Assembly: GCA_027624855.1 (NCBI GenBank) | Contig: JAQBTQ010000003.1 | Span: forward strand, 62,001-126,000 | DNA from: Bacteroidota bacterium | Lineage (GTDB): Bacteria > Bacteroidota > Bacteroidia > Flavobacteriales_D > Sanyastnellaceae | Reading direction: 5' to 3' | DNA: 64,000 bases | In this document: piece by piece, positions 1,100-54,297 of the stretch | Position numbering within the stretch: position 1 is the stretch's first letter | Layout of the letters: the number at the start of each line of letters is the position of its first letter | Notes under the pieces: model-generated | The model's input: only the letters and a program-made list of their open reading frames with translations | What the model was told of the DNA's origin: nothing | The model's database searches: none | Made by a program: the position numbers and the translations under genes

Positions 1100-2152
1100 T
1101 CAGGGGCGGTTATAGAACGACTTCAGTGCCCTTTCTTTTGCCAGTGCTGCCGAAGTGTAATCTGGTTTTAAACGGAGTGCCTCGCTGTAATCGGATAGCG
1201 CGGCCTCCGTTTCACCCATGCTTTCAAGAGCCAATCCCCGATTGAAAAAGGCTTGGTGATAATAGGGCAAATGTTCGATTGCCTCGCTGAACCAAAAAAC
1301 TGCACTATCGTATTGAGCATAGTATTCAAGGTGAATGAAGCCTTGGTTAAAAGACGCCGTTGCGTTTGTTGAATCAATTGCTAATATTTCGCGGTACAAT
1401 CCAAGGGCGTCTCTGTATTGTTCTGAATTTTGATAGAAAATGGCCAGGTTGTATTTCGCCTCGATTGAGCTAGGTCGCAACTCAATCGCGGAGCGATAAA
1501 ATTCCTCTGCTAAAGGGTTTTGTTGACCTGCCAAGTAAATTCCGAGCGAAATGTACCCATCAAAGAATTCAGGATTGACCTCAATCGCCGTTTGATAGGA
1601 ACTGATGGCCTTATCTTGGTCATTCTGCGAAGCATAAATTTTGCCTTTCATCCAATATGCCTCATGAAGTTGGTTGTCGATTCGGAGGGCTGAATTGAGG
1701 TCTTCAAATGCCCGCTCAAATTGATTGAGATGGACATAGAATTCTGCGCGAAGAAGCCGGCATTCAGTGCTTTGAGGAGCGAGTCTGATGCATGAATTGA
1801 GTTCATCCATGCAACCATCGAAGTTTTGCATTCGGTACAACATGTCCACTCGTTGTTCCCAAGCGGGTGCAAATGCAGAATCTGCTTTGAGGGCGAGTCC
1901 CCAATCTTCAAAAGCCCTCTGAGGCTGACCATAATTTGAATAGTACAATGCACGATCATGGTAGGCTTGCGGATCGTTGGGCGAATCGATGATTCGCGCG
2001 TTCAATGAATCTAGTTGCGTCGGCTGATTGCTCGATTCAGCTTGCTTAATAGAATCATTGCATTGGACGAGAGAGAATGATAGAAAAACAACAAGGGCAG
2101 CGGAAATCCGTGCCCTTGTTAGGATTGTTTTTTTTCGTGTCAATCGCCGCAT
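1100..2152 (-). CDS. TPR-repeat lipoprotein
   Basis: A 350-residue protein with a basic N-terminus, a hydrophobic stretch and a lipobox-like LVQC around residue 31, so it is probably an exported lipoprotein. From about residue 45 to the end there are roughly eight TPR units in tandem (examples: AFEDLNSALRID, AISSYQTAIEVNP, ALSDYSEALRLKPD). The function is unknown beyond protein-protein scaffolding in the envelope. It starts only 8 bases after the recA stop on the same strand, so it is probably co-transcribed with recA. Confidence 0.85.
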   Translation of the reverse strand: MRRLTRKKTILTRARISAALVVFLSFSLVQCNDSIKQAESSNQPTQLDSLNARIIDSPNDPQAYHDRALYYSNYGQPQRAFEDWGLALKADSAFAPAWEQRVDMLYRMQNFDGCMDELNSCIRLAPQSTECRLLRAEFYVHLNQFERAFEDLNSALRIDNQLHEAYWMKGKIYASQNDQDKAISSYQTAIEVNPEFFDGYISLGIYLAGQQNPLAEEFYRSAIELRPSSIEAKYNLAIFYQNSEQYRDALGLYREILAIDSTNATASFNQGFIHLEYYAQYDSAVFWFSEAIEHLPYYHQAFFNRGLALESMGETEAALSDYSEALRLKPDYTSAALAKERALKSFYNRP

Positions 2153-52812: not shown

Positions 52813-53670
52813 TCACTTTTTTCTCGAAAAGAACTGATTCCTAGACACCACGCTTTCAGCTCTGAATCCTTGGATTTTACTTGGTGATAAAATCGAATGA
52901 TCCGTCAGAAAGATTTTTGCGGATCCAATGATGAGTTCGGTTTCGATGAAGACGGGCAGTCGCTGCTCATCAGCTGTTACAAACACTTGCATCAGATCTC
53001 CAGCTTTGAACACTGTTCCCTCAATGAGTTGGGGTTGGATGATCCAACACTCATAGGATTCATGTGAATCTGGATCAGTCCATGTTTCAATGCCCAAAAA
53101 CTGGATGTTGGTTTGGTGGATTTCTCCATCCAATATCAAGTCCATTTTCAACACTTTACCTTCCGAGTAGGTATCCCATGGGATTTGTCGGCACCAATGC
53201 ACAGCAGTCATTACATCCATGACCGTTGTTTTGCTCTCAAATAAAGTCACCTCTCCACTGGATAATTCATCATCATTGCCAATCCACGAAATAGAGAAGC
53301 CCTCATTGAATTGATATGCGCGATCGTAAGCATGGCTCCCTTCGATGCCTTTTCTCGAAAACTGGTGCGGTTGAAAATGTTTGTCTGCGGTGCTAGAGTA
53401 AATGCTGTTGACTGGATAAAACCAATTCCAATGTGATTGCGATGTTCCCCATCCTTCGAAGCTCCACAATGATCTTGGATCGTTGGGATTGAGTAGCGTA
53501 GTGAACGTAGCGTTTCCGACCTCCAAGTAGAGGGGCCCCCATTCGTATGTAATCACAAAATCCAGCCGCTCTCCATTGATGGGGCCATTCGCTGAGGGCT
53601 GAGCTAGTGAGAAGGGGGTTGTCAGCAATAGCAAAGAAAAAACCCCGCTGTGAAGCAGGGTTTTTTTCAA
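52813..53670 (-). CDS. DUF3108 family exported protein
   Basis: 285 residues if started at the TTG at 53670; another TTG at 53694 overlaps the DUF1573 stop as TTGA. I prefer 53670 because it yields the classic signal peptide (MKKTLLHSGVFSLLLLTTPF, then SLAQ). No ATG is available nearby. The mature part (FVITYEWGPLYLEVGNATFT) and the later beta-strands match DUF3108, a periplasmic/lipocalin-like family of unknown function. Its first codons contain a terminator-like hairpin, listed separately. Confidence 0.85.
   Translation of the reverse strand: MKKTLLHSGVFSLLLLTTPFSLAQPSANGPINGERLDFVITYEWGPLYLEVGNATFTTLLNPNDPRSLWSFEGWGTSQSHWNWFYPVNSIYSSTADKHFQPHQFSRKGIEGSHAYDRAYQFNEGFSISWIGNDDELSSGEVTLFESKTTVMDVMTAVHWCRQIPWDTYSEGKVLKMDLILDGEIHQTNIQFLGIETWTDPDSHESYECWIIQPQLIEGTVFKAGDLMQVFVTADEQRLPVFIETELIIGSAKIFLTDHSILSPSKIQGFRAESVVSRNQFFSRKK
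53640..53668 (-). terminator. Terminator-like hairpin inside the 5' codons of the DUF3108 gene
   Basis: On the minus strand AACCCTGCT (TCAC) AGCGGGGTT followed by TTTT: nine pairs with one U-G wobble. It stands 23-50 bases after the DUF1573 stop, so it may end that transcript. The hairpin also has an A/T-rich flank in the other direction but with a C-A mismatch there, so the minus direction is stronger. Confidence 0.6.
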
Positions 53671-53690
53671 AGCAGATGCAAAGAATGCGT

Positions 53691-54248
53691 TCAAGATCCT
53701 GCTGCGGCTGGGTCAACCTCTACGAATGCCGTGATCGTCAACATTGTTTGCGGTGGATCGGTATTCGCATTGATGGTGACCTTTTTGGTCTGGGCATCCT
53801 TTTTTCCTTTCGAATTGAATTTGACTTCAATTTGACCCTTAGCACCAGGTTGAATAGGCTCTTTGGGGCATTTGGGTACAGTGCATCCGCATGAACCTTT
53901 GCAGTTATCGATGACCAACGGCTCATCACCGGTGTTGGTGAATTCGAACATGTGTGTGACTGATTCAGGCTGGGTGATGGTGCCGAAATCGTATTTGTAC
54001 TCCGCAAATTCAATGGTCGTCGTAGGTCCCGCAGGAGGTGGTGTTTGCGCTTTTGCTAAATCGTCTGTTGGGCTGACAGTCGTACCATCCATACCAGGGC
54101 TGGTGTTGACAGCAATTTCACGTGATACTTCAGCTCCTTCGGCTGAACGAGAAGTAGCGGCAGCCCCCTCTTCTGATCCGTTGGATTCGCAACCGATCAT
54201 CAATAGGCCCAAGGCTGGTGCCAAAAAGAATTTCAAATTCATATGCAT
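53691..54248 (-). CDS. DUF1573 lipoprotein
   Basis: 185 residues from the ATG at 54248 (or 54242). Lipobox LLMIGC. A low-complexity Ser/Glu/Ala-rich linker (about 20-70) leads to a DUF1573 domain (TIEFAEYKYDFGTITQPESV, then HMFEFTNTGDEPLVIDNCKG with CGCT). Its Ig-like domain is common in Bacteroidota outer-envelope proteins; the paired cysteines CKGSCGC are conserved. Preceded by a strong promoter and followed by a terminator-like hairpin, so it is possibly expressed alone. Overlap at its 3' end is with the upstream DUF3108 TTG. Confidence 0.9.
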   Translation of the reverse strand: MHMNLKFFLAPALGLLMIGCESNGSEEGAAATSRSAEGAEVSREIAVNTSPGMDGTTVSPTDDLAKAQTPPPAGPTTTIEFAEYKYDFGTITQPESVTHMFEFTNTGDEPLVIDNCKGSCGCTVPKCPKEPIQPGAKGQIEVKFNSKGKKDAQTKKVTINANTDPPQTMLTITAFVEVDPAAAGS

Positions 54249-54265: not shown

Positions 54266-54297
54266 CAAAATTAAGAGCTATTGGATTCGAAGTCAAA
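54266..54297 (-). promoter_or_regulatory. Promoter for the DUF1573 gene
   Basis: Minus strand: TTTG (54297-54294), spacer of 20, TAATTTTG (54273-54266): a full match to the Bacteroidota promoter. It lies over the 3' end of the S41 protease gene, so the lipoprotein has its own promoter inside the protease unit. Predicted leader about 10 bases. Confidence 0.7.

Follow-up and report, generated by a model that had tools for sequence, protein, structure and literature searches.

Can a stretch of DNA that ends the transcript of one gene also encode the export signal of the next? The question is raised by a junction in the window, the whole stretch of 64,000 nucleotides that was analysed here, on whose minus strand the gene order is S41 peptidase, DUF1573 (PF07610) and DUF3108 (PF11306), with a hairpin and T-run of the intrinsic-terminator kind lying among the first codons of the last gene (Table 1). 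Comparison with related genomes indicates that the answer is very probably yes: in this marine bacterial group, one stretch of DNA would serve as both terminator and protein export code, and the arrangement is conserved family-wide.

Table 1. Features of the DUF1573-DUF3108 junction and of a second embedded hairpin in the window
Feature	Position	Strand	Basis or detail
DUF1573 lipoprotein gene	53691..54248	-	ATG 54248, TGA 53693-53691
DUF3108 gene	52813..53694	-	open reading frame and Pfam
DUF3108 TTG start codon, overlapping the DUF1573 stop	53692..53694	-	frame and relatives
Intrinsic-terminator-like hairpin and T-run, within DUF3108 codons	53637..53666	-	pattern, fold, relatives, recoding, stem pairing
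DUF3108 signal-peptide codons, 31 aa	53602..53694	-	by eye; cleavage before Gln inferred from the Q-rule
Bacteroidota-type promoter match TTTG-N20-TAATTTTG upstream of DUF1573	54266..54297	-	match to consensus
Hairpin then T-run, in signal-peptide codons of TPR-like lipoprotein, 39 nt past the recA stop	2089..2121	-	gene names by eye

Structure of the junction

The hairpin runs from 53666 to 53637 on the minus strand, 24 nt after the DUF1573 TGA. Its 13 pairs (five G-C, one U-G and the remainder A-U) enclose a loop of four, and the T-run is continuous with the stem. The initial annotation had described a stem of nine GC-rich pairs with a T-run in the same direction; the T-run and its direction hold, but the description of the stem does not. 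The fold of 53700-53625 has an energy of -22.2 kcal/mol (z -3.2), which none of 200 shuffles equalled, and no competing fold of the antiterminator kind is present in the minimum-energy structure of this segment. A match to the terminator pattern alone means little, because a scan of the region found three such sites against 2.3 expected; the claim rests on conservation.

The DUF3108 frame is open from the TTG at 53694, from which it reads MNAFFASALKKTLLHSGVFSLLLLTTPFSLAQ, and contains a second TTG at 53670. By eye, the N terminus reads as a signal peptide with a basic n-region, a hydrophobic core and a Gln at the cleavage site, a residue that some relatives do not obviously have; under the Q-rule outlined for Bacteroidetes, Gln is expected after signal-peptide cleavage (PMC5837995). 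The stem and T-run encode KKTLLHSGVF. As the initial annotation had proposed, the hairpin thus falls inside the signal-peptide codons of DUF3108, the frame being open across 53666-53637 and the signal peptide recognized by eye.

Conservation of the hairpin within the family and beyond

At an E-value of 0.001 the DUF3108 protein was found in all 22 genomes of the genus and in 81 of the 114 genomes of the family, weaker matches being paralogues elsewhere. A search of genome contigs with the single protein matched no relative; the alignment-based contig search returned 60 loci, some of them duplicate contigs under public names (Flavobacteriales UBA979, Crocinitomicaceae MED692). Junctions were retained where DUF3108 follows DUF1573 with E below 1e-40, to which the partial locus L030 was added. 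This gave 27 family junctions: 16 genus loci, L030 and ten from five other genera. Paralogue loci (L018-L029 and L041-L044) were inspected and left out of the counts.

A predicted terminator lies 22-37 nt past the DUF1573 stop in all 27 junctions, each with a T-run (at least five T in eight) that was demanded by the search itself. In 25 of them the hairpin is embedded, that is, the start codon of DUF3108 precedes the stem by 23-34 nt and both hairpin and T-run are translated. The start codons of these 25 loci (17 ATG, four GTG and four TTG) overlap the DUF1573 stop in 14 cases and lie within 10 nt of it in every case. The two non-embedded junctions belong to one genus; L039 has its ATG in the loop, and that of L040 follows the T-run. 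In a protein tree built without the signal peptides, by a quick method that left several weak forks, every early branch of the family has the embedded form, and L039 and L040 nest inside; the minimum is three changes when the next family is included. An alignment was made of 23 of the 25 embedded loci (without L008 and L030), and no count rests on it.

These comparisons also bear on the start codon, which the initial annotation had placed at either 53670 or 53694. We prefer 53694, since each of the 25 embedded loci has a start codon at this place, and only some have one at the other; the TTG at 53670 was rejected as a start, being without a match in most relatives. The claim of a non-ATG start overlapping the DUF1573 stop is upheld in the window, where the TTG at 53694 overlaps the TGA at 53693-53691. 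Of the two elements whose conservation had been in question, the hairpin is kept in 27 of 27 junctions and the TTG is not, 17 of the 25 embedded loci having ATG. Relatives with an ATG and no hairpin were sought: in the family the 17 ATG loci all retain the hairpin, and it is in the next family that four of five junctions are without it.

The latter junctions come from another family of the order, in which four of the five DUF1573-DUF3108 junctions fetched show no clear terminator (L103 gave a weak match) and the terminator of the fifth, L098, is embedded. The gene pair can therefore live without a terminator. Further afield, among 35 DUF3108 loci of Bacteroidales, at least four (L134, L139, L148 and L155), which stand behind a different gene, have a hairpin and T-run at the signal peptide, perhaps of independent origin.

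Selection on the stem and on the protein code

The stems vary between groups, with CCCTGC, GGTCCTGC, GGCTCC, AGCCCC and others in use. In the 16 distinct stems, standard pairs make up 97.2% of the total compared with 64% when partners are shuffled (none of 2000 shuffles reached the observed value), and there are 22 pair types beyond the first compared with 17 (reached by 4 of 2000), in a shuffle that takes no account of relatedness. Compensatory changes occur at eight of nine pairs, a count that 269 of 2000 shuffles reach and that is, alone, no better than shuffles. Moreover, when the protein was held fixed, only 0 to 12 of 1000 synonymous recodings per locus reached the observed hairpin score across the 25 loci (3 of 1000 at the window locus). 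Because recoding so rarely recovers the hairpin, the protein sequence does not explain it. On this comparison of stems, which have been rewritten and yet still pair family-wide, the hairpin is not a matter of chance.

Assignment of the terminator and its promoter

All 22 genomes of the genus have a predicted terminator behind DUF1573, 17 with DUF3108 adjoining and five without (L059, L062, L063, L065 and L066). In all five the terminator is strong and stands 35-39 nt past the DUF1573 stop; no DUF3108-like frame was found among the frames beside DUF1573 in these genomes, and a rhodanese-like frame (identified by eye) converges on DUF1573 in three of the five. Since these congeners keep the hairpin in the absence of DUF3108, it belongs to DUF1573. 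Its position is also typical, as its distance from the stop matches the median of 28 nt for terminators near stops in the window's genome (n=45). The embedded stems of the genus (n=17) score below those of the five genomes in which DUF3108 does not follow (Mann-Whitney p 0.013), which fits partial read-through, though the five may be one clade.

A strong promoter of its own had been ascribed to DUF1573. Sites of the E. coli type do not bear this out (four against 3.0 expected), but TTTG-N20-TAATTTTG at 54297-54266 matches the Bacteroidota-type promoter consensus. The full motif is present upstream of DUF1573 in two of 27 loci, and its -7 part, TAnnTTTG, upstream of the DUF1573 ATG in 15 of 27. 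Inside DUF1573 this consensus found no full match in any of the 27 loci, of which L011 was only partly covered. An internal promoter bypassing the terminator was rejected on this count and on position: the DUF3108 start codon precedes the hairpin, so a promoter further downstream could not supply the whole signal peptide.

Other hairpins within signal peptides

When about 805 kb of the window's genome, with 617 frames, were surveyed strictly, four sense cases emerged, namely DUF3108 and three more, along with four antisense cases, two of which are the same palindromes; a further five sense matches, whose ATG comes after the T-run, were excluded. All four sense cases have signal-peptide-like starts by a loose hydrophobicity test that 239 of the 617 starts pass. 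In 400 kb each of three other genomes, sense and antisense cases numbered five and none (the congener G010, with none of the five at 20-40 nt past a start codon), three and one (G068), and one and two (G190). No genome-wide enrichment of signal-peptide-embedded hairpins was demonstrated in these 805 kb and three times 400 kb, and we claim none, because antisense cases are as frequent as sense cases and the G010 matches do not have this geometry.

The hairpin that follows recA (Table 1) was compared at 21 of 23 loci (without L205 and L206). By eye, 15 of the 21 genus loci keep it within the lipoprotein signal peptide, with stems that differ and a T-run that is weak in many; the other six have lost it. 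At L243 (8176, minus strand), the signal-peptide codons of an alpha-amylase-like lipoprotein contain a hairpin AGCCATGC..GCATGGCT with a T-run, which is found in eight of the 17 genus loci whose 5' end is complete (that of L254 and L256 is missing, and L267-L269 are outside the count). At L169 (19709, minus strand), a hairpin and T-run lie in the signal peptide of an OmpA-like protein that starts at a TTG. Related hairpins occur in L277, L280 and L281, and three of six usable relatives show one, about ten of the 16 rows of that comparison having picked a neighbouring paralogue and being uninformative.

Proposed mechanism and alternatives

We consider it probable that the hairpin serves DUF1573 as its ordinary intrinsic terminator, that the signal-peptide codons of DUF3108 run through it, and that DUF3108 is made by read-through. 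DUF3108 would start at or beside the DUF1573 stop, its signal-peptide codons crossing the terminator, with the A-run read as Lys, the stem as a few variable codons and the T-run as the hydrophobic residues Phe, Val and Leu. Signal peptides are permissive as to sequence, which may be why such dual coding is tolerated. Transcription from the DUF1573 promoter would then mostly end at the hairpin, and a minority of transcripts that read through would make DUF3108, giving a high ratio of DUF1573 to DUF3108, while the overlapping start could let ribosomes reinitiate on the read-through mRNA. Full-length DUF3108 needs copying past the hairpin because its start lies upstream of it; this position of the start codon relative to the predicted terminator supports the dependence on read-through that had been offered as one of two explanations.

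A broader reading, possible though doubtful, is that several loci of the lineage keep intrinsic terminators that double as signal-peptide code, because A-run, stem and T-run translate into Lys and hydrophobic residues, and that stop-less transcripts, weak or coupled initiation and ribosome rescue together control both genes. If so, each shortened transcript would have a start codon without a stop codon. The E. coli analogy described below suggests that strong starts at this junction may be costly; eight of the 25 starts are not ATG. Ribosome rescue is likely, as predicted for the window's genome, because SmpB is encoded there; a tmRNA was sought in this draft genome (G000), with no match over the Rfam cut-off.

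The second explanation originally offered was attenuation gated by translation, in which ribosomes restarting at the overlapping codon would cover the 5' arm before the polymerase leaves the T-run, so that transcription of DUF3108 would require efficient translation across the junction. The geometry would agree with such gating, with start and stop overlapping or within 10 nt in every embedded locus and the start held 23-34 nt from the stem. We nevertheless think it unlikely, as the close E. coli analogue shows an effect of only ~10%, the stem stands as far from the stop as is usual in this genome, and at a similar distance (35-39 nt) where DUF3108 is absent, and an Rfam scan of the junction found no known regulatory RNA at its cut-off.

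Very unlikely, in our judgement, is that the hairpin is a translated mRNA structure rather than a terminator, which would slow ribosomes at the signal peptide or aid weak start codons. Its near-constant distance past the start codon (25 of 27 loci) and the non-ATG starts in eight of 25 would agree with such a role, but the hairpin and T-run are kept in the five genomes in which DUF3108 does not follow, and a T-run comes after the stem in 27 of 27 junctions, though the search demanded one. Finally, the idea that signal-peptide codons just happen to fold is hardly credible, since the near-expected number of pattern matches in the region and the equal sense and antisense counts of the 805-kb survey, which would suit it, are set against relatives whose stems change and still pair and against the synonymous null.

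Under the favored reading of a DUF1573 terminator crossed by DUF3108 codons, the junction offers a clean system for the interplay of read-through, reinitiation and the rescue of stop-less mRNAs. It also carries a warning, because annotation that shifts starts past terminators or drops TTG starts would remove the signal peptides of real genes.

Comparison with known systems

The hairpin resembles intrinsic (Rho-independent) terminators in its stable short stem, short loop and T-run 22-37 nt past a stop codon, and differs from them in doubling as codons of the next gene, within a signal peptide. Gene pairs are also known whose translation is coupled through an overlap of stop and start, and the overlaps TTGA, GTGA, TGATG, TAATG or TAGTG place the DUF1573-DUF3108 pair beside them; here, in contrast, a terminator directly follows the coupled start.

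A closer likeness is the W48 construct of E. coli, in which the tR2 terminator stands 30 bp after an AUG. Translation lowered its efficiency by only ~10%, mRNAs ending at the terminator contained a start codon but no stop codon, and expression of the upstream gene was about half that of the reference (PMC4824070). According to the same source, E. coli terminators beyond ~30 bp from the stop are near the maximum of ~0.9, whereas the efficiency of nearer ones depended on the intervening sequence (PMC4824070). Although it comes from another organism, the W48 result favors read-through over strong gating by translation. W48 shares with our junction a terminator shortly after a start codon and behind an upstream gene, and the stop-less mRNAs that this entails; it is synthetic, and the sections of the source cited here report no signal peptide, conservation or overlap of start and stop (PMC4824070). 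The ribosome-mediated attenuator bmrB of Bacillus subtilis is alike in that a terminator within a translated frame controls downstream expression, but bmrB is an open reading frame of 53 aa whose terminator controls later genes, whereas that of DUF3108 sits in the functional gene itself (PMC4191407). Any regulation at the DUF3108 junction, in contrast, is putative. We found no description of a conserved terminator inside a signal peptide in the open literature, as covered by titles and the openings of abstracts, with subscription journals mostly outside. Terminators inside reading frames are thus known, and what is new here is a conserved natural one that is dual-coded as the signal peptide of the next gene.
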